NCBI RefSeq assembly: GCF_001562275.1
Contig: NZ_CP014304.1
Span: forward strand, 4,154,001 to 4,218,000
DNA: 64,000 nt
Origin: Hymenobacter sp. PAMC 26628
GTDB taxonomy: Bacteria; Bacteroidota; Bacteroidia; Cytophagales; Hymenobacteraceae
Reading direction: 5' to 3'
Both the position numbers and the translations under genes were made by a program. Below the pieces are notes generated by a model, which was given only the letters and a program-made list of their open reading frames with translations, had not been told where the DNA came from and did not search any database. Positions 51,756 to 64,000 of the stretch are shown here, in pieces. Numbering within the stretch: position 1 is the first letter of the stretch; each line of letters opens with the position of its first letter.

Positions 51756-52742
51756 CTACAGCCGGTGGCGCTCGTTGCGCACGGCGTTGTGCAGGTCCCA
51801 CACTACGGCGTGCTCGAAGGGGTGCTCGCGCACCGGGCAGTCGGCCACGCGGCAGAGCGAGCAGGCGGCAAATGTGCACGGGTCGGCGTGGACGAACATC
51901 TCCACTTCCACCGCAAACTTCTCCCGAATCAGCTCCTCGATGTCGTGCAGCTCGGTGTGCACGTGCTCCAGGCTGAAGTAGTAAGGCATCTGCATGTGGC
52001 AGTCGATGTGCAGGTTGGCGCCGTAGCGCTGCACGCGCAGGTTGTGCACGTCGATCCAGGGGGCCCGGCGGTGGGCTTGCAGCTCGGCGATGACCTCCGT
52101 GACGACGGCCGTGTCGGTTTCGTCCATCAGGCCCGCCACCGAGCGGCCCACCATGCGCCCGCCGTTCACCAGAATGAAGCCGCCCAGCAGCAGCGCCGCT
52201 CCGCCGTCGATGCGCACCACGCCAGTGGCCGCCACCAGCAGCAGCGCCCCCGACGACACAATGGACGTCAGGGCGTCGATGTACAGGTGCTGGCCGTCGC
52301 CCACCAGAGCCACCGAGTTCAGCGCCCGGCCCTGGCGCACCAGGTACAAGCCCAGCCCCAGGTTGGCCACCGCCGTGGTGGCCAGCAGCGCCACGCCCCA
52401 GCTGGGCCGGGCCACGGCGTGCGGGTGCAGCAGGCTGCCCGTGGCCGAGTACAGGATGTAGGCCCCGGCTATAAAAATTAGGGCCCCTTCGAAGCCCACC
52501 GACAGGTGCTCGATTTTGCCGTGGCCGTAGGGGTGGTTCTCGTCTTTGGGCAGGCCGGCCAGGTACAGACTGTACAGGGCAAAGCCGCTGGTGAAGATGT
52601 TGATGATGCTTTCCAGGGCATCCGTCAGCACCACTTGCGAGCGGGTGAGGTGGTAGGCGTAGAATTTGATGGCCACCAGGGCCACGCTCACCACGAGGGA
52701 AAGCAGGCCGAGGCGGGTTTTGGTTTGAGCCAGCGCAGTCAT
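51756..52742 (-). CDS. Cation diffusion facilitator (CDF) metal efflux protein
   Basis: A 328-aa inner-membrane proton/metal antiporter with six helices. Metal site residues are visible: D41 and E44 in LTDALES, the histidine loop HPYGHGKIEH (71-79), and DGQHLYIDALTS in helix V. The cytosolic C-terminal domain has HNLRVQRYGANLHIDCHMQMP and then an unusual cluster of four cysteines with histidines, DPCTFAACSLCRVADCP, absent from many CDF proteins. It diverges from mntH, so one region may control Mn/Fe import and efflux. Confidence 0.9.
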   Translation of the reverse strand: MTALAQTKTRLGLLSLVVSVALVAIKFYAYHLTRSQVVLTDALESIINIFTSGFALYSLYLAGLPKDENHPYGHGKIEHLSVGFEGALIFIAGAYILYSATGSLLHPHAVARPSWGVALLATTAVANLGLGLYLVRQGRALNSVALVGDGQHLYIDALTSIVSSGALLLVAATGVVRIDGGAALLLGGFILVNGGRMVGRSVAGLMDETDTAVVTEVIAELQAHRRAPWIDVHNLRVQRYGANLHIDCHMQMPYYFSLEHVHTELHDIEELIREKFAVEVEMFVHADPCTFAACSLCRVADCPVREHPFEHAVVWDLHNAVRNERHRL

Positions 52743-52850
52743 GTATAAAAGCAAAACGGGCCGACAAAGGTCGCGCTTTGGGGGCCCCCGGCCGCCGGCC
52801 AGCCCGCAACTTTTCCCCAGGTTCGGCGTATTTTAGGTCGTTTAAAATTA

Positions 52851-52872
52851 ATTTTTAGACTAACCTAAAAAT
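52851..52872. promoter_or_regulatory. DtxR/MntR-type operator ahead of mntH
   Basis: ATTTTTAG-N6-CTAAAAAT with perfect 8-bp arms and spacer ACTAAC. The whole reads close to the TTTAGgCTAACCTAAA style of DtxR/IdeR/MntR sites. It lies where the -33 region of the mntH promoter should be, so a metal-loaded repressor would block transcription. A second half-like match, TTTTAGG, is at 52831-52837. Confidence 0.65.
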
Positions 52873-52878
52873 CTGCCC

Positions 52879-52886
52879 TACCTTTG
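52879..52886 (+). promoter_or_regulatory. mntH -7 box (TACCTTTG)
   Basis: A perfect TAnnTTTG only 9 nt before the mntH ATG. Transcription would begin within a few bases of the start codon, giving a leaderless or near-leaderless mRNA. Confidence 0.6.
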
Positions 52887-52895
52887 TAGTGTACC

Positions 52896-54278
52896 ATGAC
52901 TGAGTTTGCTTCTTCCACTGCCGTGCCCGCCGTTTCCACTGCCGTTGCCAATCCCGCCGATGCTGGCTGGCGCCACGCCCGCCGCGCCAACTCGCTGAGC
53001 GAGGTGCACGGCAGCATTGCGGTGCCCGAAGCGGGGGCCTCGTTTTGGCGGAAGTTCCGGGCCTACTGGGGCCCCGGCTTGCTGGTGGCCGTGGGCTACA
53101 TGGACCCCGGCAACTGGGCCACCGACCTGGCCGGCGGGGCCCGCTACGGCTATACGCTGCTGTCGGTGGTGTTGGTTTCCAGCTTGTTTGCCATGTTTTT
53201 GCAGCACTTGGCCGCCAAGCTGGGCATCGCCACGGGCCGCGACCTGGCCCAAGCCTGCCGCGACCACTACTCGCGCCCCGTGAGCCTGGGGCTGTGGGCC
53301 ATGTGCGAAATTGCCATCGCCGCCTGCGACCTGGCCGAAGTCATCGGCTCGGCCATTGCGCTCAACCTGCTCTTTGGGCTGCCGCTGGCCTGGGGCGTCG
53401 TCCTCACCACGCTGGATGTGCTGGTGGTGCTGTTTTTCCAGCACAAAGGTTTTCGGCTCATCGAAAGCCTGGTTGGGGGGCTCATTCTCCTGATTTTTTT
53501 CTGTTTCCTCTACGAAATCATCGCCTCGCGGCCCGATTGGCGGGCCCTGGCCGGCGGCCTGCTGCCCCGCCCCGAAGTGGTGATGAACCCCGGGATGCTC
53601 TACGTGGCCATCGGCATCCTGGGGGCCACTGTGATGCCCCACAACCTGTACCTACACTCCAGCATTGTGCAAACCCGGGCCTTCGGGCAGGACGAAACGG
53701 CCAAGCGCACGGCCATCAAGTTCTCCACCATCGACTCGACGGTGGCGCTGTTCCTGGCGTTTTTCGTGAACGCGGCCATCCTCGTCACGGCCGCCGCTGC
53801 CTTCCACGGCAAGGGCCACGACAGCGTAGCTGACATCGCCGACGCCCACAAGCTGCTCACGCCGGTGCTGGGCGCGGGCGCGGCCTCGGTGCTGTTTGCC
53901 GTGGCGTTGCTGGCCTCGGGCCAAAACTCGACGCTGACCGGCACGCTGGCCGGCCAAATTGTGATGGAAGGCTTCCTCGACCTCAAGCTCAAGCCCTGGG
54001 TGCGGCGGCTCATCACGCGGCTCATTGCCGTGGTACCGGCCCTGGTGGTCACCATCTTGTACGGCGAGCGGGGCACCGGGCAGCTGCTGGTGCTCAGCCA
54101 GGTCATCCTGTCGTTGCAGCTCAGCTTTGCGGTGGTGCCGCTGGTGCTCTTCACCGGCGACAAGCTGAAAATGGGCGTGTTCGCCAACCGCCCCGGCGTG
54201 CAAGTGGCCGCCTGGGCCGTCTCCGCCATCATCATCGTGCTGAACGTGTACCTGCTCTGGCAAACCGCGGTGGGCTAG
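52896..54278 (+). CDS. mntH: Nramp-family divalent metal importer (MntH)
   Basis: A 460-aa inner-membrane proton-coupled importer of Mn(II)/Fe(II). Helix 1 carries DPGN (70-73) and helix 6 carries MPHN (247-250), the two metal-binding motifs including the metal-contacting Met. About eleven helices are visible, and the N-terminus is a 50-residue cytosolic tail. The ATG at 52896 lies right after a TACCTTTG promoter box. A DtxR/MntR-like palindrome upstream suggests repression when metal is plentiful. The CDF exporter is divergent. Confidence 0.93.
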   Translation: MTEFASSTAVPAVSTAVANPADAGWRHARRANSLSEVHGSIAVPEAGASFWRKFRAYWGPGLLVAVGYMDPGNWATDLAGGARYGYTLLSVVLVSSLFAMFLQHLAAKLGIATGRDLAQACRDHYSRPVSLGLWAMCEIAIAACDLAEVIGSAIALNLLFGLPLAWGVVLTTLDVLVVLFFQHKGFRLIESLVGGLILLIFFCFLYEIIASRPDWRALAGGLLPRPEVVMNPGMLYVAIGILGATVMPHNLYLHSSIVQTRAFGQDETAKRTAIKFSTIDSTVALFLAFFVNAAILVTAAAAFHGKGHDSVADIADAHKLLTPVLGAGAASVLFAVALLASGQNSTLTGTLAGQIVMEGFLDLKLKPWVRRLITRLIAVVPALVVTILYGERGTGQLLVLSQVILSLQLSFAVVPLVLFTGDKLKMGVFANRPGVQVAAWAVSAIIIVLNVYLLWQTAVG

Positions 54279-54305
54279 GGCCCCGGGGGTGGCTAGGCTT
54301 TTCAC

Positions 54306-54480
54306 TGGCCGCAATTTAGCGCGGAGCGCGTAACTGCTGGCTGGTAAATGGGGCGAGTTTGCAACTCGCAAAGTGGAACGACCTATTTGCGCAACCTGCC
54401 TGGCCGTTACGCGGCCGTGAGTTGCAAACTCACCCCGTACCACGGCTCGCAGTTACGCGCTCCGCGCTAAACTGTGGCCA
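54306..54480. repeat. Long imperfect palindrome (MITE-like), 175 bp
   Basis: Outer arms of 32 bp (54306-54337 and 54449-54480) share a 23-bp perfect core from TTTAGCGCGGAGC to TAACTGC. A second nested pair lies inside: 54350-54367 with 54419-54436, GAGTTTGCAACTC type, one mismatch. It fills the spacer between mntH and the TonB receptor. No coding frame is evident. The form suggests a non-autonomous mobile element or a large RNA hairpin. Confidence 0.75.
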
Positions 54481-54576
54481 GCGAACAAGCACAGCCGCTC
54501 GATCACCTATCTCCTACTTCCCCCGCTCCACGGCGGGTCGGCTTCGTCGTGCCTCTTAATATCTAAGAAAATATCT

Positions 54577-57042
54577 ATGAGAATATTATTCCTCGCCTTG
54601 CTTTTTATTTCTCAATTGACTTTTGCCCAAAGCGTTGAGGTGAGCGGCACCGTGCGCGACGGCCGGCACCAGTCGGTGCCGTTTGCCGGGGTGGGCGTGG
54701 TGGGCACGGCCCTGGGGGCCACCGCCGACGCGGCCGGCCGCTACCAGCTGCGCGGGGTGCCGCCGGGGCCCCAGCGGCTGCGGGCCAGCGCCGTGGGCTT
54801 CGCGCCGGCCGAGCGGGCAGTGGCCGTTTCGGGGCCGGCCGGGGCCCCTGTCGCCGTTGACTTTGTGCTGGTGGCCGCGCCCGCCGGCCTGGGCGAGGTG
54901 GTGGTGACGGGCGTGGGCCGGGCCACCGAGCTTCGGCGCAGCCCCGTGCCCATTGCCGCCCTCAGCCGACGCGAAATGCAGCTTAATGCCAACACGAACG
55001 CCATCGACGCGGCGGTGCGCGGCGTGCCCGGCCTGAGCGCCGTGACCACGGGCCCCAACATCAGCAAGCCGTTCATCCGCGGGCTGGGCTACAACCGGGT
55101 GCTGACCCTGTACAACGGCCTGCGCCAGGAAGGCCAGCAGTGGGGCGACGAGCACGGCCTGGAGGTGGACGGCTACGACGTGGAGCGGGTGGAGGTAGTG
55201 AAGGGCCCCGCCAGCCTGCTCTACGGCTCCGACGCGGTGGCCGGCGTGGTGAACCTGCTGCCCGCCCTGCCCCAGGGCCCCAGCGGCGAGCTGCACGGCG
55301 AAGCCCTGGCCGAGTACCAGAGCGTCAATGGATTAATTGGCACCTCGCTGGGCCTGAACTACCAGCAGAACGGCTTCCAAACCAGCCTGCGCGCCAGCCA
55401 CCACCTGGCCCGCGACTACCGCAACGCCGCCGATGGCCCGGTGTACAACACCGGCTACCGCGAGCTGGCCCTCACCGGCATGGTGGGCGTGCAAAAAAGC
55501 TGGGGCAGCGCCCACGGCTACCTCACGGCCTACGACAACCGCCAGGAAATTCCCGACGGCAGCCGCGACTCGCTCAGCCGGCGCTTCACGCGGCAGGTGC
55601 TGGAGAGCGGGGCCGACAATATCAAGAACCGGCCGCTGGTGACGGACGACGAACTGAACCGCTACGTCCTCAGCGACTTGCGCCAGCGCATCCGGCACTA
55701 CCGGGCCTTTGGGCGGGGCACCGTGCGGCTGGGCGGCGGCGAGCTGCGCCTGCTACTGGGGGCCCAGCGCAACCACCGCCAGGAGTTCAACCACCCCACC
55801 GCGCCGGCCCAGGCGGGGCTCGATTTGCAGCTCACCACCTACAGCTACGAGACACGTTACCTGCTGCCAGCCTGGCGCGGCTACGAGCTGACGGTGGGCG
55901 GCAACGGCATGACGCAGCTCAATAAGCACCTCAACGCCACCGACTTCCCCATCCCCGCCTACCAGCTCTTCGACCTGGGCGGCTTTGGGGTGCTGAAGAA
56001 AACGCTGGGCCCCCTGGAGCTGACCGGCGGCCTGCGCTACGACACCCGCGCGGTACGCTGGGACGATTTTTACGTGGCCCCGAACCCGGCCACGGGCTTC
56101 GCGGGGGCCGCGGGGGCGGGCGCGGCGGGGGCCGATTTGCCGTTTCCGGCGTTTCGGAACCGCTACCGGGGCGTGTCGGCCAGCCTGGGCGGCAGCTACG
56201 CGCTGGGGCCCCGGCTGGTGCTGCGGGCCAACGTGGCGCGCGGCTACCGGGCCCCCAACATCCCCGAAATCGGCTCGAACGGCCTCGACCCCGGGGCCCA
56301 CATCGTGTACCTGGGCAACCGCGGCTTCGGCCCCGAGTTCAGCTTACAGGAAGACGTGGGGGCCCTGTGGCAGTCGCCGGCCGTAGACGCCAGCGCCGAA
56401 ATCTTCCACAACCACGTCGATAATTTCATTTACCAGGCCCGGCTCTACGACGCCGCCGGCCAGCCCGTGGAGGTGGTGCCCGGCAACGCTACCTACCAGT
56501 ACCAGCAAGCCGCCGCCCGCCTCTACGGCCTGGAAATCAGCGTGAACGTGCACCCCACCGCCCTGCCCTGGCTGAGCTGGCGCACCGGCGCGGCCCTGGT
56601 GCGCGGCCTCAACGACAACGCCGCGCTGCTGGAGCGCCTGGGGCCCCCGGCCCGCTACCTGCCGCTTATTCCGGCCCCGCAGGCTCGCACCGAGTGGCGC
56701 GCCACGGCCCCCGCCCGGCCCGGGCGGGTGGCCGGCGCCTACGTCCGGGTGGGGCTGGACGCCACGGCCCGCCAAACCCAGTTTTACGCCGTGGACGGGG
56801 CCGAAACCGCCACACCCGGTTACGTGCTGCTGGGCCTGGGGGCCGGCGCCACCTGGCGCACCCGCGCCGGGCGCGAGGCCGTGCAGGTGTTCGCGCAGGC
56901 CGACAACGTGCTCAACACCGCCTACCAGGCCCACCTCAGCCGCCTGAAGTACTTCGAGTACTACGCCACCACGCCCACCGGCCGCACCGGCATTTTCAAC
57001 CCCGGCCGCAACGTGGGCCTGAAAGTGGTGGTGCCGTTCTGA
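54577..57042 (+). CDS. TonB-dependent outer-membrane receptor
   Basis: An 821-aa active importer. Signal peptide about 1-18 (ending FAQS); a CarboxypepD_reg-like domain (VSGTVRDGRHQSVPFAGVGV); a TonB-box-like VVVTGVG; the plug with RGLGYNRVLTLYNGLRQEGQQWGDEHGLEVD and VEVVKGPASLLYGSDAVAGVVNLL; then the barrel ending NVGLKVVVPF with terminal Phe. Its position 3' of mntH and among metal genes suggests a metal or metallophore substrate, but this is inferred. It differs from SusC in length and has no SusD partner. Confidence 0.92.
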   Translation: MRILFLALLFISQLTFAQSVEVSGTVRDGRHQSVPFAGVGVVGTALGATADAAGRYQLRGVPPGPQRLRASAVGFAPAERAVAVSGPAGAPVAVDFVLVAAPAGLGEVVVTGVGRATELRRSPVPIAALSRREMQLNANTNAIDAAVRGVPGLSAVTTGPNISKPFIRGLGYNRVLTLYNGLRQEGQQWGDEHGLEVDGYDVERVEVVKGPASLLYGSDAVAGVVNLLPALPQGPSGELHGEALAEYQSVNGLIGTSLGLNYQQNGFQTSLRASHHLARDYRNAADGPVYNTGYRELALTGMVGVQKSWGSAHGYLTAYDNRQEIPDGSRDSLSRRFTRQVLESGADNIKNRPLVTDDELNRYVLSDLRQRIRHYRAFGRGTVRLGGGELRLLLGAQRNHRQEFNHPTAPAQAGLDLQLTTYSYETRYLLPAWRGYELTVGGNGMTQLNKHLNATDFPIPAYQLFDLGGFGVLKKTLGPLELTGGLRYDTRAVRWDDFYVAPNPATGFAGAAGAGAAGADLPFPAFRNRYRGVSASLGGSYALGPRLVLRANVARGYRAPNIPEIGSNGLDPGAHIVYLGNRGFGPEFSLQEDVGALWQSPAVDASAEIFHNHVDNFIYQARLYDAAGQPVEVVPGNATYQYQQAAARLYGLEISVNVHPTALPWLSWRTGAALVRGLNDNAALLERLGPPARYLPLIPAPQARTEWRATAPARPGRVAGAYVRVGLDATARQTQFYAVDGAETATPGYVLLGLGAGATWRTRAGREAVQVFAQADNVLNTAYQAHLSRLKYFEYYATTPTGRTGIFNPGRNVGLKVVVPF

Positions 57043-58404: not shown

Positions 58405-58671
58405 TTACTTGTCCGACCTGCCGTCGTGGTTGCTGTCGGTGCGGGTATCGGCGGCCTCGTATCCCTGCTCCTGGCTGGGCGCTTTGCCGGGGCGGCGCAG
58501 GCCGGCCACAATGGAGTCGCCGCTGGGGTTGGCCTGGATAATGTCGCCGTGCTTGGGGCCGCTCTCCTCCACGTGGGTCGAGCCGTATTTGTTCGAATCG
58601 CCGCACGCGCTGACGCTGAGGCCGGCGGCCACGGCGGCAACCAGCAGGAGGGGACGAAAAAGGGTTTTCAT
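58405..58671 (-). CDS. Small lipoprotein, paralogue of its neighbour
   Basis: An 88-aa protein with a lipoprotein signal ending VSAC (C23). The mature part is short, polar and Gly/Asp-rich, contains GDSIVAGLRRPG, and ends DSNHDGRSDK, a calcium-loop-like acidic motif. The next gene upstream (58728-59003) has the same layout with DSAVAGLHR and NHDGKADH, so they are tandem paralogues. Function unknown; export to the outer membrane is likely. Confidence 0.7.
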   Translation of the reverse strand: MKTLFRPLLLVAAVAAGLSVSACGDSNKYGSTHVEESGPKHGDIIQANPSGDSIVAGLRRPGKAPSQEQGYEAADTRTDSNHDGRSDK

Positions 58672-58727
58672 AAGGTAAGCGAAAATAGGAAAAGCCGTGG
58701 GTAACGGCGTGGGTAAACAGCGTGGCG

Positions 58728-59003
58728 CTAATGGTCGGCCTTGCCGTCGTGGTTGTGGTCTACGTGCTCGTCGGCGTGCTCATAAAGCTGCTCGCCGGTG
58801 GGGCGGCCCGGCGCGTTGCGGTGCAGGCCGGCCACGGCCGAGTCGCCGCCGGTAGGAGGCGCCGTTTCCCGCGGCACGATGGACTTGTCGCCCCCGTTCT
58901 CGACGTTGGTTTCGCCGGGGTGGTCGGGGTTGCTGCAGCTGGCCAAGGCGCCAACGAAAGCAACGGCCAGCAAGACGGGGAGGGGGCGCAAGCAGTTTTT
59001 CAT
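58728..59003 (-). CDS. Small lipoprotein, paralogue of its neighbour
   Basis: A 91-aa protein with signal and lipobox LASC (C23). The shared core is GDSAVAGLHRNAPG, and the tail YEHADEHVDHNHDGKADH is rich in His and Asp. Compared with its 58405-58671 paralogue it has more histidines, which could bind metal ions; that is a guess from composition. The two genes are 56 bp apart on the same strand. Confidence 0.7.
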   Translation of the reverse strand: MKNCLRPLPVLLAVAFVGALASCSNPDHPGETNVENGGDKSIVPRETAPPTGGDSAVAGLHRNAPGRPTGEQLYEHADEHVDHNHDGKADH

Positions 59004-59142: not shown

Positions 59143-59742
59143 ATGTCCGCTTCTTCCGCTTCCGCTACTTTGCCGGCCCCTGCCCATACTTACGCCGAGT
59201 TCCGGGCCCTGGTGGGCACGCTGGCCGCCGAGCGCCGCACCACCGGCCCCGACCAGGGCCCCGCCCTGGTGCGCTTCACCGAGCAAAACCAGCAACACCT
59301 CGACAATGCTTACGCCCTGCCCCTGCTGCCCGAGCTGGTAGACCGCCTGCGCCACCTGCCCGCTCCCCAGCGCTGGCTGGTGCTGGCCGAGGCCTGGTGC
59401 GGCGACACCGCCCACGAGCTGCCCCTGCTGGCGCACCTGGCCGAGGGCAGCGGCGGCCGCGTGACTTTGCACGTGCTGCTGCGCTCCGAGCACCCCGCCT
59501 TCATGGCTGCCCACCAAACCAACGGCAAAGACAGCATTCCCAAGCTAGTGATGCAGGACGCGGCCACCGGCGCCACCGTGGCCGAGTGGGGCCCCCGCCC
59601 GGCCGAAGCGCAGGCGCTGGCCCACCGCCTGCACTCCGACCCTGAGCAGCACACCGCCGCCATCGTGCGCCAAATGAACGAGTGGTACACCGCCGACCAG
59701 GGCAAATCGTTGCAGCGCGAGCTGCTGGCGGTGCTGGCGTAG
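59143..59742 (+). CDS. Thioredoxin-fold protein with a single active-site Cys
   Basis: A 199-aa cytosolic protein. The segment LVLAEAWCGDTAHELPLL sits where thioredoxins have WCGPC, so only the first Cys remains (WCGD). The downstream DSIPKLVMQD contains the cis-Pro typical of the fold. Such WCGD proteins form a known thioredoxin-like family in Bacteroidota, whose reaction is unclear; without the second Cys a normal disulfide exchange cycle is unlikely. No signal peptide is seen. Confidence 0.8.
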   Translation: MSASSASATLPAPAHTYAEFRALVGTLAAERRTTGPDQGPALVRFTEQNQQHLDNAYALPLLPELVDRLRHLPAPQRWLVLAEAWCGDTAHELPLLAHLAEGSGGRVTLHVLLRSEHPAFMAAHQTNGKDSIPKLVMQDAATGATVAEWGPRPAEAQALAHRLHSDPEQHTAAIVRQMNEWYTADQGKSLQRELLAVLA

Positions 59743-59839: not shown

Positions 59840-60202
59840 ATGCCCCAGTTGCCGCGCCTGCGCTTTGCCCGTTTCCTGGCCCCTGGGCCGTGGCGGCGGG
59901 TGAGCGTGCTGGCCGCCGTCAGCCTGGGGCTGGCCCTGGCGCTGGTGGGGTACGTATTTGGGGCCGACGGGCATTTCTTTGGCCGGCTAGCCCCGGCGTT
60001 CTTTATCTTTTTCTGGCTGTTGGCTGTTACCTTCCTGGCCGTGGTGCCCTTCGTGAGCTGGGCCACCGAGCACTGGTTTGGCCGGGGCTGGGCGGCATCG
60101 TCGCCGGCTCCGGCGGCCCGCCGCTCCCGCCCGGCTCCGGCCCGGGGGCCCGTTCGTTCCACATCTTCCACCGCCGCCGCAAGGCGGTCTTCAACACGTT
60201 AG
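59840..60202 (+). CDS. Hypothetical small membrane protein
   Basis: A 120-aa protein with a basic N-terminus, two hydrophobic helices (about 22-42 and 50-72) and an Arg/Ser/Pro/Ala-rich C-terminal tail. No family is recognised. It ends 4 bp before the HMA-AraC regulator gene, so the two are probably co-transcribed. An AT-rich TATAAATTTCC stretch lies about 40 bp upstream, but it is not a TAnnTTTG match. Confidence 0.5.
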   Translation: MPQLPRLRFARFLAPGPWRRVSVLAAVSLGLALALVGYVFGADGHFFGRLAPAFFIFFWLLAVTFLAVVPFVSWATEHWFGRGWAASSPAPAARRSRPAPARGPVRSTSSTAAARRSSTR

Positions 60203-60206
60203 TTAT

Positions 60207-60776
60207 ATGTCTACGAACTTGCTATACATCAAAAACATGGTGTGCCCACGCTGCGTCGAAGCCGTGCACAACCTGCTGGAGCGCGCCGGTTACAAGACCA
60301 AAACCGTGACGCTGGGCACCGCCGAGCTCGACGCCACCACCCCCGTCGACCCTGAAACCGTGGCCCCGCTGCTCGAAGCCGCCGGCTTCGAGCTGCTGCG
60401 CGGCCGCGCCGAGCAGCTCACCGAACAAATCAAAACCCTGCTCGCCGACTACCTCGAGCACCTGCGCACGGCCCGCTCGCCGCTCACCACCTCGGCCTTC
60501 CTCACCGAGCGGCTGGCCGCCACCTACTCGCACCTCAGCAAGGTGTTTTCGCGCACCGCCCACCTCACCATCGAGAAGTACCTCATCCGCCTCAAAATTG
60601 AGCACGTGAAGGAGCTCCTTAGCTACGGCGAGCTCACCCTAAACCAGATTGCCGACCAGATGCGCTACAGTTCGGGCCAGCACTTAAGCAACCAGTTTCG
60701 CCAGGTCACGGGCCACTCCGTGAGCGAGTTCCGCCGCCAGGTCCTGCCCCCCCGCCTCTCGCTCGACGCGCTGTAA
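60207..60776 (+). CDS. AraC-type regulator with an HMA-like metal-binding N-terminus
   Basis: A 189-aa protein. The first ~65 residues resemble a heavy-metal-associated (HMA) domain, with YIKNMVCPRCVEAVHNLL giving the CxxC pair C13 and C16, followed by a beta-alpha-beta pattern. The C-terminal half is an AraC DNA-binding domain: LAATYSHLSKVFSRTAHLTIEKYLIRLKIEHVKELL then LNQIADQMRYSSGQHLSNQFRQVTGHSVSEFRR. The ATG at 60207 starts the HMA part. With a copper-storage-like protein and a Met-rich outer-membrane protein downstream, it is a candidate copper-responsive regulator. Confidence 0.85.
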   Translation: MSTNLLYIKNMVCPRCVEAVHNLLERAGYKTKTVTLGTAELDATTPVDPETVAPLLEAAGFELLRGRAEQLTEQIKTLLADYLEHLRTARSPLTTSAFLTERLAATYSHLSKVFSRTAHLTIEKYLIRLKIEHVKELLSYGELTLNQIADQMRYSSGQHLSNQFRQVTGHSVSEFRRQVLPPRLSLDAL

Positions 60777-60796
60777 AGCCCCGATTTCAGGCATAT

Positions 60797-60834
60797 AAAA
60801 GGGGCCCCCACCAAATCGGTAGGGGCCCCTTTTT
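60797..60834 (+). terminator. Terminator after the HMA-AraC gene
   Basis: AAAAGGGGCCCC pairs with GGGGCCCCTTTT, and the CACC/GGTA part of the loop can extend it; a T-run follows. Confidence 0.85.
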
Positions 60835-60846
60835 GGTTCATAGCTA

Positions 60847-60988
60847 TAGAGACGCGATACTTCGCGCCTCTATAAATGCCCGATTCGCGCCTCGGCCAAT
60901 ATCCGGTTGAACACTGCCCGGCTTGAGCTGACCGATACAGCATTGCCACGACCGAGCAGCGATTGAGGCGCGAAGTGCCGCGTCTCTA
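60847..60988. repeat. MITE-like inverted repeat, 142 bp
   Basis: Arms of 24 bp (60847-60870 and 60965-60988), TAGAGACGCG then ACTTCGCGCCTC, with two mismatches, enclose a 94-bp centre without coding capacity. It lies between the HMA-AraC terminator and the end of the Csp-like gene. Confidence 0.75.
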
Positions 60989-60996
60989 CAGGGCAA

Positions 60997-61338
60997 TTAT
61001 TTGTAGGATTTGCAAGCTTCCAGGCAGGCTTTGCAGGCGGCGGCACATTGCTGGCAGTGGGCGTGCTGGTGCTGGGCGCATTCGTCGTGGCACTTCTGAC
61101 AGATTTCGATGCACTCCTTGAGCACGTGCGGAGCGTGGTCGGAGCCGCGGGCGATGAAGGCGGCGGTGAGGCGGCAGATGTCGGCGCAGTCGCGGTCGAG
61201 CCGGATGCAGGGCACCATCATCGCAAGGTTGTCTTCGCCGAGGCAGGCGGTGGCGCAGTGCTCGCAGGCGGCTACGCAGCGGGCGAGGGCATCGAGGACG
61301 TCTTGGTGGGCGGGACGGGGGTCAGTGGAAATGGCCAT
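60997..61338 (-). CDS. Four-helix bundle copper-storage-like protein (Csp/DUF326)
   Basis: A 113-aa cytosolic protein with 16 cysteines in helical spacing: CVAACEHCATAC, CADICRL, ECIEICQKCHDEC, HCQQCAAACKACLEAC. This is the Csp3-type pattern in which Cys line the inside of a four-helix bundle and hold many Cu(I) ions. No signal peptide is present from the ATG at 61338 (MAISTDPRP); a longer reading adds a non-conserved leader. It is divergent from the Met-rich outer-membrane protein. Confidence 0.88.
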   Translation of the reverse strand: MAISTDPRPAHQDVLDALARCVAACEHCATACLGEDNLAMMVPCIRLDRDCADICRLTAAFIARGSDHAPHVLKECIEICQKCHDECAQHQHAHCQQCAAACKACLEACKSYK

Positions 61339-61439
61339 GTACTGAGGCAGGAATAAGTTGAATAAATAAGCGGCAACGCGCTGCTTGGACTGGTTTACGG
61401 GGCCCCGGCCGCCGGGGTGGTGCAGCATTCGGCCAAAAG

Positions 61440-61496
61440 CCTACACCATTCGGCGGGGGCCCCAAATCCTGTTGATGCCAGGCCGAATGGTGTTGG
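61440..61496. promoter_or_regulatory. Palindrome in the divergent csp / Met-rich protein promoter region
   Basis: ACACCATTCGGC (61443-61454) and GCCGAATGGTGT (61482-61493) are perfect 12-bp arms, extendable by GCC/GGC with one mismatch. A further CATTCGGC copy lies just to the left (61427-61434). The position between two likely copper genes makes it a candidate operator, though it could be an RNA hairpin. Confidence 0.4.
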
Positions 61497-61538
61497 CCCG
61501 GGTGAAAACCGGGCGGGGAAACCGAGCGTTATAAGGCC

Positions 61539-63035
61539 ATGCACACACCGTTACATCCTTCCGCCGCCCGGGGCCCCAAGCGGGCCGCCGCCAGCCTGGT
61601 GGCCGCCGGCCTGGTGGCCCTGACCGGGGCCCCCGCGCACGCCCAGCAGCCCGGCGCCATGCCCGGCATGGCCATGCCCGCCGACACCGCTCGCCCCAAA
61701 AAACAAATGGAGCACATGCCGGGCATGGACCACGCGGGCATGGACATGGGCGGCGCCGACGGCGGGCCCACCATGTCGGCCGCCACCTCGCGCAACCTGC
61801 CCATGAGCCGCAACGGCTCGGCCACCAGCTGGCAGCCCGACGCCACGCCGATGTACATGTGGATGACCCACAAGGGCCCCTGGATGGTGATGGCCCACGG
61901 CGGCGCCTACGGCCGCTACACCAGCCAGAACTTCAACCACAGCGGCGGCCGCGGCCACGCCAACGCCGTGGACGGCCCCAACTGGGGCATGGCCATGGCC
62001 CAGCGCAACGTGGGGGCCCACGGCCTGCTGAACCTCACGCTGATGATGTCGCTCGACGCGCTAACGGAAACCCGCGGCGGCTACCCGCTGCTGTTCCAGA
62101 CCGGCGAGAGCTACAAGGGTCAGCCGCTCATCGACAAGCAGCACCCGCACGACCTATTTTCGGGCCTGAGCGTGGGCTACGTGCACGCCGTGAGCCAGGA
62201 CGTGGACGTGAGCCTGTACCTGGGCTACCCCGGCGAGCCGGCCATCGGGCCGGTGGCCTTCATGCACCGCATTTCGGCCATGCCCAACCCCGACGCGCCC
62301 CTCTCCCACCACTGGACCGACGCCACGCACATCGCCTTCGGGGTGGCCACGCTGGGCGTGCGCTACAAGCAGTTTAAGCTGGAAGGCAGCAACTTCACCG
62401 GCCGCGAGCCCGACGAGCACCGTTACAATTTCGACAAGCCCCGGGCCGACTCCTGGGCCGCCCGCCTGAACTGGAACCCCGGCCGCGAGCTGGCGCTGCA
62501 AGTGAGCCGCGCCTTCATCAAAAGCCCTGAAGACTTGCACCCCGACGAGAACGTGACCCGCACCACGGCCAGCATCCTGCACAGCCACCACTTTGGCGAT
62601 GCCCGCCACTACATCGCCTCGGCCCTCATCTGGGGCATGAACCAGGGCTCTACCCCGCACCCCGAGCACGCCGTGCTGGCCGAAACCAACCTCACCCTGG
62701 GCCGCCCCACGTTCTACGGCCGCTACGAGTTCGTGCAGAAAGACAGCGAGGAGCTGGGCTATTACTTGCAGGGCCCCGCCGATGAGCCGCTGGCGGCCGT
62801 GTTCAACGTGCACGCCCTCACGCTGGGGGCCAGCTACCGCCTCACCGCCGACGATTTCCGGGGCCCCGAGGTGCACGTCGGCGGCCAGCTTACGGGCTAC
62901 GTGCCGGCCGCCGCGCTGCGCCCGCTTTACGGCCAGGTGCCGCTTTCGGCCTCGGTGTACGTGCGCCTGAACGCGCCCTGGATGAGCATGGGCAAAATGA
63001 TGGGCGGCAGCAAGATGGGCGGCATGAAGATGTAG
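61539..63035 (+). CDS. Met/His-rich outer-membrane protein, probably copper-related
   Basis: A 498-aa protein with a signal peptide (cleavage near AHAQQ) and a Met/His-rich mature start: MPGMAMP, HMPGMDHAGMDMGG. The rest looks like a beta-barrel (GVRYKQFKLEGSNFTGRE, AARLNWNPGRELALQVSRAF, GRYEFVQKDSEEL), and the C-terminus ends in more Met motifs (MGKMMGGSKMGGMKM). Such Met motifs bind Cu(I). It resembles the function of CopB/PcoB-type outer-membrane proteins, but homology is not claimed. It is divergent from the Csp-like gene. Confidence 0.75.
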   Translation: MHTPLHPSAARGPKRAAASLVAAGLVALTGAPAHAQQPGAMPGMAMPADTARPKKQMEHMPGMDHAGMDMGGADGGPTMSAATSRNLPMSRNGSATSWQPDATPMYMWMTHKGPWMVMAHGGAYGRYTSQNFNHSGGRGHANAVDGPNWGMAMAQRNVGAHGLLNLTLMMSLDALTETRGGYPLLFQTGESYKGQPLIDKQHPHDLFSGLSVGYVHAVSQDVDVSLYLGYPGEPAIGPVAFMHRISAMPNPDAPLSHHWTDATHIAFGVATLGVRYKQFKLEGSNFTGREPDEHRYNFDKPRADSWAARLNWNPGRELALQVSRAFIKSPEDLHPDENVTRTTASILHSHHFGDARHYIASALIWGMNQGSTPHPEHAVLAETNLTLGRPTFYGRYEFVQKDSEELGYYLQGPADEPLAAVFNVHALTLGASYRLTADDFRGPEVHVGGQLTGYVPAAALRPLYGQVPLSASVYVRLNAPWMSMGKMMGGSKMGGMKM

Positions 63036-63124: not shown

Positions 63125-63235
63125 GCCATTAACTCCCCAAACAGCTTGGCAAAAGGTACAGCCCCGCACCCGCAAATCCCGCCCGACCTTTGCGGCCACT
63201 GAACCCGGGGCCCCCTGGCCGGGTTGAAGGCTACC

Positions 63236-64000
63236 GTGTCGCTCGTCGCTCCCAAAATCCTGCTCATCACCCCGCCGCTCACGCAGCTCAACACCCCGTA
63301 CCCGGCCACGGCCTACATCAAGGGGTTTTTGAAGGGCCGCGGCTACGACGTGGCGCAGGCCGACCTGGGCCTGCAGCTGGTGCTGCGCCTGTTTTCGGTG
63401 GATGGGCTGAAGCGGGTGTTTGCCGAAATCGAAGCCGGCGATTTCAATCTCAGCGACAACGCCAAGCGGATGCTGCGGCTGCAAAACCGCTACCTGGCCA
63501 CCGTGGCGCCGGTGGTCAGGTTCTTGCAAAACAAGGACTTGACGCTGGCCCCGCGCATCTGCCACGGCCGCTTTCTGCCCGAAGCCAGCCGCTTCGACAA
63601 CGTGGCCGACCTCGAATCCGCCTTCGGCACGATGGGCCTCACCGACCAGGCCCGCCACCTGGCCACGCTCTACCTGGAGGACCTGGCCGACCTCATCAAG
63701 GAAACCGTGGGGCCCCACTTCGGCTTCTCCCGCTACGCCGAAAAGCTGGCCCTCTCCGCCACCAGCTTCGAGCCGCTGCATCAGGCCCTGCAAGCCCCCG
63801 CTAACTTATTGGATGCGTTACTATTGGAAGAGCTGGACGCGCTGCTGGCCCGCACGCAGCCCGACGTGGTGGGCTTCACGGTGCCCTTCCCTGGCAACCT
63901 CTACGGGGCCCTGCGTCTGGCCCAACGCATCAAGCAAACCTGCCCCGAAACGCGGACCATCATGGGCGGCGGCTACCCCAACACAGAGCTGCGCACCATC
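63236..64000 (+). CDS. B12-binding domain protein, probably radical SAM (partial)
   Basis: At least 255 residues, open at the right edge. It begins with a GTG followed by SLVAPKILLITPPLTQLNTPYPATAYIKGFLKGRGYDVAQADLGL, the usual start of B12-binding radical SAM proteins. The B12-binding Rossmann half appears later as TQPDVVGFTVPFPGNLYGALRLAQRIKQT and IMGGGYPN. The radical SAM Cys motif would lie beyond the window, so the catalytic part and product are not seen. It follows a hairpin repeat and has no clear TAnnTTTG box. Confidence 0.75.
   Translation, partial: MSLVAPKILLITPPLTQLNTPYPATAYIKGFLKGRGYDVAQADLGLQLVLRLFSVDGLKRVFAEIEAGDFNLSDNAKRMLRLQNRYLATVAPVVRFLQNKDLTLAPRICHGRFLPEASRFDNVADLESAFGTMGLTDQARHLATLYLEDLADLIKETVGPHFGFSRYAEKLALSATSFEPLHQALQAPANLLDALLLEELDALLARTQPDVVGFTVPFPGNLYGALRLAQRIKQTCPETRTIMGGGYPNTELRTI

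Follow-up and report, generated by a model that had tools for sequence, protein, structure and literature searches.

What does a protein that joins a metallochaperone-like domain to an AraC-type DNA-binding domain control, and is the copper-related locus around it a system of its own? The question arises from a window of 64,000 nucleotides of Hymenobacter sp. PAMC 26628, the whole stretch of DNA analysed here. A preliminary description had proposed a copper locus built around an AraC DNA-binding domain fused to a CxxC HMA-like domain, with a 16-Cys Csp3-type protein and a Met/His-rich outer-membrane protein as partners. These three genes are present, with small differences in coordinate details, and the interval 59840-63035 holds four genes in all: a small putative membrane protein, HMA-AraC, Csp (- strand) and the outer-membrane protein (+ strand). 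The features used below, in window coordinates, are as follows.

59143..59742, + strand: thioredoxin-fold protein (PF14595; Trx9), conserved upstream neighbour of HMA-AraC
59840..60202, + strand: small putative membrane protein, 120 aa, with HMA-AraC directly downstream; conserved neighbour
60207..60776, + strand: putative HMA-AraC regulator, 189 aa, with an HMA-like ferredoxin-fold sensor domain (residues ~3-65) and an AraC-type DNA-binding domain (residues ~66-180)
60243..60254, + strand: CPRC, residues 13-16, within the signature IKNMVCxRC seen in alignments; presumed Cu(I) site
60997..61338, - strand: Csp3-type four-helix-bundle copper storage protein, 113 aa, 16 Cys, by inspection without signal peptide
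61422..61450, - strand: candidate HMA-AraC operator facing the Csp gene, AATGGTGT-N13-AATGCTGC, a 21-bp direct repeat
61465..61493, + strand: candidate HMA-AraC operator facing the porin gene, AATCCTGT-N13-AATGGTGT, ending 45 bp before the porin ATG
61539..63035, + strand: outer-membrane porin-like beta-barrel, 498 aa, with a Met/His-rich disordered N-terminal tail at about 61647-61778

The HMA-AraC protein and its neighbours

The open reading frame at 59840-60202 is a gene separate from HMA-AraC, its stop lying 4 bases before the HMA-AraC gene, and is probably co-transcribed with it. Csp and the outer-membrane gene are transcribed away from each other across a gap of 200 bp. A tandem pair of small lipoprotein-like genes that are related to each other and carry a C-terminal EF-hand-like DxNxDGxxD motif (58405-59003, - strand) is kept upstream of the Trx9 gene in relatives, and 63224-64000 holds the start of a B12-binding, radical-SAM-like gene that lies downstream of HMA-AraC genus-wide.

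The C-terminal part of HMA-AraC matches Pfam HTH_18 at 2e-15, above the gathering score, and its two-HTH AraC DNA-binding domain places the protein in the AraC/XylS family. The Pfam HMA profile (PF00403) gave no match to the protein above cut-off, and NCBIfam returned a sub-threshold CopZ match over residues 6-62; a profile of the N-terminal domain built from 19 homologs found ATP7B (2e-14), CopZ (9e-6) and other copper HMA domains in the PDB. In an AlphaFold model built with 43 homologs (pLDDT 90.7), residues 3-65 overlay gold-bound GolB, the best structural match (Z score of 8.6 over 60 residues, 1.8 Å), and Atx1 (Z score of 8.2), values that taken alone are compatible with a mere common fold, and residues 66-189 overlay AraC DNA-binding domains (Z score of 13.9). 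The predicted fold is beta-alpha-beta-beta-alpha-beta, with the CPRC motif at the start of helix 1. By sequence profile, CxxC position and predicted fold, which concur, the N-terminal domain is an HMA fold of the Atx1/CopZ type, and the fusion first read from the DNA is borne out.

The signature IKNMVCxRC hardly varies over a range that runs from Hymenobacter to Bacteroides, Prevotella and Balneolaceae, and both cysteines are present in nearly all homologs across the phylum; one of the two anchors of the locus search included L[HY]IKNMVC, so that conservation of the first cysteine is partly ascertained, while the second is free of this bias. The CPRC domain would bind Cu(I), and the protein would activate transcription. 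A subgroup of HMA-AraC proteins carries CxxG in place of CxxC (CSRG, CRRG; G000:C2:2876515-2877042, also seen as L073 and L077, and L070:2105-2695), the first of these adjoining a Csp gene. They may be paralogs that bind no metal or are differently tuned.

Read from the ATG at 61338 (- strand), the Csp protein has 113 aa and 16 Cys; the longest open reading frame begins at 61428. It matches the solved cytosolic Csp3 structures, which are Cys-rich four-helix bundles, with E values of 1e-17 (6ei0) and 7e-17 (5fig), in agreement with the Csp3-type assignment made initially. The 113-aa frame begins MAISTDPRPAHQDVL and by inspection has no Tat/Sec signal sequence, as expected of a cytosolic protein and unlike Csp1. 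On sequence, it is an ordinary cytosolic Csp3 homolog. Csp3 proteins are described as binding much Cu(I) and protecting against copper toxicity (PMC5171941).

The outer-membrane protein contains 30 Met, 27 His and 0 Cys among its 498 residues. A signal-peptide-like start is followed by the disordered Met/His tail and then by a barrel, which in a modest model (pLDDT 66.7) is predicted to resemble OmpF. Searches of the protein for the CopB Pfam family gave no match up to an E value of 1, a weak TonB-barrel match being the only one, and the protein constitutes a conserved family of its own. Relatives on Sphingobium plasmids have a MerR regulator nearby and, in one of two cases, a heavy-metal P-type ATPase, which extends the metal link of the porin-like protein beyond Bacteroidota. 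The Met/His tail may face the periplasm, preceding the barrel, and the protein could act in copper handling by import, export or binding; the "surface trap" of the preliminary description is an unproven reading.

A 21-bp direct repeat upstream of copper genes

A de novo motif search in the upstream regions of 23 copA-type genes, all from Bacteroidota families other than Hymenobacteraceae, returned a 21-bp direct repeat with a score of 336, against 225-229 for shuffled sequence. The learned repeat approximates AATTnTRTAA-N11-AATTnTGTAA and lies mostly about 45 bp upstream of the start codon. We describe the candidate operator in general form as a 21/22-bp direct repeat of AATNNTRY, and for counting used the strict core AATNNTGY-N13-AATNNTGY. 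The window contains exactly two perfect strict dyads, at 61422-61450 (- strand) and 61465-61493 (+ strand), where shuffles predict 0.02; both lie in the divergent Csp/porin promoter, one facing each gene. Because the half-site had first been spotted by visual inspection of upstream regions, those of this window among them, this match is not fully blind, and the more independent support for the operator comes from the de novo copA search and from the presence/absence comparison in separately drawn genomes described below.

In an intergenic alignment of close relatives, the dyad core positions have a mean conservation of 0.90, compared with 0.78 elsewhere. Conservation is best in the site that faces Csp and in the proximal half of the one that faces the porin gene, whose distal half is less well kept. 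Outside the window, the CusCBA locus has a perfect dyad with 22-bp spacing before an HYC_CC_PP gene that precedes cusA, and copA itself has an imperfect, hand-scored 10/12 site, AATTATGC-N13-TATTCAGT. Seventeen relaxed dyads occur genome-wide, most of them without a visible copper link; among those inspected, all but the Csp/porin pair and the Cus site are located inside unrelated genes or next to them. Further metal transport genes (a CDF cation exporter, an Nramp transporter and a TonB-dependent receptor) stand at 51756-57042 of the window, and no perfect dyad was found near them.

A weight matrix derived from the AT-rich copA promoters did not rank the window sites highly, its best scores in this GC-rich genome falling on AT-rich spots, and the core pattern was therefore used instead. 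A Gibbs motif from Csp upstream regions was discarded, having converged on coding repeats at the ends of neighbouring HMA-AraC genes. The same kind of search in porin upstream regions recovered one half-site, placed about 20 nt ahead of the -7 box, and not the full dyad.

In many cases the dyad itself precedes the -7 box by about 20 nt and falls close to the -33 region, as it would if it were a general Bacteroidota promoter element, or the site of another factor, found with HMA-AraC by coincidence. We think this very improbable: the 5.37-Mb genome contains only 6 perfect strict copies, and in separately sampled genomes the dyad at copA depends on the presence of HMA-AraC.

That dependence was seen in genomes drawn from the phylum separately from the motif training set. 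A dyad matching at least 11/12 lies upstream of copA in 15 of 23 genomes with HMA-AraC versus 2 of 13 without it (Fisher p=0.005, kinship ignored), and a 12/12 dyad in 9 of 23 versus 0 of 13 (Fisher p=0.009, kinship likewise ignored). In 1.92 Mb of HMA-AraC neighbourhoods, which include sequences that served to define the motif, 27 of the 73 perfect dyads precede a CopA, Csp, porin or CusA gene by at most 400 bp, with 2.2 expected.

Copper-gene neighbourhoods across Bacteroidota

An HMA-AraC homolog is present in all 200 family genomes (200/200), usually as one close ortholog accompanied by paralogs. The N-domain profile finds a match with an E value of 1e-3 or below in 192 of 296 genomes from the phylum as a whole; the weakest of these matches may be HMA domains of ATPases, and the strong ones listed are almost all in frames of ~180-315 aa. 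Within the genus the order lipoprotein, Trx9, membrane protein, HMA-AraC, Csp, porin, B12-radical-SAM is largely kept, Csp and porin being variably present. A porin-like gene follows HMA-AraC in many genomes of the genera labelled g1, g4 and g5, two Csp genes with dyads follow it in g6, and both Csp and porin are missing beside it in many relatives. The link of Csp and porin to HMA-AraC is thus recurrent and not obligatory.

Beyond the family, genes for HMA-AraC, Csp and the porin occur together in Spirosoma and Siphonobacter. Among 55 HMA-AraC loci outside the family, CopA is encoded in the retrieved flanking sequence, which extends to at most 8 kb on either side, in 26 and any copper gene in 34; with one to a few copA per 4-Mb genome, we estimate that chance would place CopA there in fewer than one of the 55. 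Coordinates read off in 24 genomes sampled across the phylum, and chosen for having HMA-AraC, put it within about 5 kb of copA in 17. Plasmid Paks1 of Pontibacter akesuensis (L258, NZ_CP014767.1) gathers HMA-AraC, CopA, a Met-rich lipoprotein-like protein, porin and Csp in one cluster, with a single 11/12 dyad at the head of the HMA-AraC/CopA/porin operon and Csp alongside. This plasmid is mobilizable. The conserved neighbourhood sought in related genomes is therefore found, as in g6, Spirosoma, Siphonobacter and the Pontibacter plasmid, and the association with copper genes supports the initial idea of a copper locus centred on the regulator.

These partners bear on the identity of the signal. 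CxxC in HMA folds binds several soft metals, gold-bound GolB heads the structural matches and a thioredoxin-like gene lies upstream, all of which would suit a regulator whose CPRC responds to redox stress or to a soft metal other than copper (Ag, Au, Hg or Zn/Cd). The recurrent partners are instead a copper P1B-1 ATPase (TIGR01511), Csp stores and CusCBA-like efflux, and we regard a signal other than copper as improbable.

The Hymenobacter genome itself has two further HMA-AraC genes, one on each side of a gene for a copper P1B-1 ATPase (CopA, TIGR01511 above cut-off), and this group adjoins a second Csp gene and the CusCBA locus. Transposase-like genes separate the cus operon from the Csp/HMA-AraC/copA genes (L077:7950-9992, G000:C2 about 2873950-2875992). 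The reported absence of a P-type ATPase thus holds for the interval but not for the genome, and the absence of CueR holds genome-wide at the cut-off (TIGR02044, best 21.9 bits against 147.4 required); CsoR (PF02583) likewise gave no match in this genome. With CopA and CusCBA in the same genome, and candidate operators there too, the earlier picture of a self-contained sense-store-surface-trap system without efflux is abandoned.

The flanking of copA by two paralogs allows another assignment, in which the dyad is the operator of those paralogs and the window ortholog does housekeeping duty, regulating the thioredoxin/membrane-protein operon to which it belongs, with Csp merely adjacent; every family genome has the ortholog, including those that lack Csp and porin genes next to it, as such a role would predict. 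However, seven g1 genomes, in which one HMA-AraC homolog is detected, keep dyad-like sites upstream of copA (best 10-12 of 12), so that the window's ortholog can plausibly serve copA, and in g6 it is the ortholog itself that is followed by Csp genes with dyads. We consider the paralog assignment unlikely, while giving it some weight.

Proposed mechanism and comparison with known systems

Our preferred reading, which we hold to be probable, is that HMA-AraC is a cytosolic Cu(I)-sensing activator acting on the 21/22-bp direct repeat before Csp, porin, Cus and copA genes. Cu(I) would be taken up by the CxxC of the Atx1/CopZ-like domain; the AraC-type domain would then bind the repeat just upstream of the promoter and recruit polymerase, as position and family suggest. 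In the window, HMA-AraC would drive two divergent genes, one for a cytosolic Csp3 store that would soak up Cu(I) and one for the outer-membrane porin-like protein with its Met/His tail, and outside the window the same type of operator would also serve the CusCBA locus and, through a less perfect copy, copA. The domain architecture with its predicted fold, the recurring gene neighbourhoods, the operator sequence common to these genes and its correlation with the presence or absence of HMA-AraC come from the data presented here; which metal is sensed, in which direction the genes are regulated, whether the protein itself contacts the DNA and what the porin does are parts of this scheme that we infer. 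The window locus is one branch of the HMA-AraC copper regulon and not a stand-alone system.

The same 21-base repeat before Csp, porin and the copper-export pumps of Bacteroidota points to an undescribed, phylum-wide copper sensor. We also lean, with less assurance, to the wider view that the IKNMVCxRC HMA-AraC proteins form a new metal-sensor class and act as a main cytosolic copper regulator in much of Bacteroidota, filling the role of CueR, CsoR or CopY through a 21/22-bp operator common to copA, cusCBA, csp3 and the Met/His porin. With a candidate sensor, DNA site and targets named, copper regulation in many gut, oral and soil Bacteroidota becomes testable; if the proposal is correct, a metallochaperone-domain design joins the known metal sensors and regulons could be predicted from sequence.

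A 2024 genome study of copper handling in Bizionia argentinensis found MerR- and CopY-like proteins without copper sites and gave ArsR proteins as cytoplasmic regulators, AraC being absent from its main text (PMC11213822). No published account of an HMA-AraC copper regulator was found in the literature searchable here, which leaves most subscription journals outside it.

The window Csp resembles Csp3 of M. trichosporium, B. subtilis and S. lividans in its Cys-rich four-helix family, its 16 Cys and its lack of a signal peptide, with no marked difference beyond its placement here behind a dyad operator. CopB and PcoB are outer-membrane copper proteins that combine a barrel with a Met-rich N-terminal segment. 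The porin-like protein shares this layout and the copper cluster setting, but has no CopB Pfam match and belongs, with its predicted OmpF-like barrel, to a separate conserved family. With AraC/XylS activators of the MarA/Rob/AraC type, HMA-AraC has in common the C-terminal fold and sequence and a direct-repeat operator beside the promoter, whereas its sensor domain is HMA-like and not a cupin-type ligand domain, in a total of 189 aa. CueR is an activator, and CueR, CsoR and CopY are cytosolic Cu(I)-thiolate sensors over copA and copper stores, as we propose for HMA-AraC; the latter belongs to a different protein family, with a metallochaperone-fold sensor set on an AraC DNA-binding domain, and the new element is the operator together with its dependence on HMA-AraC.
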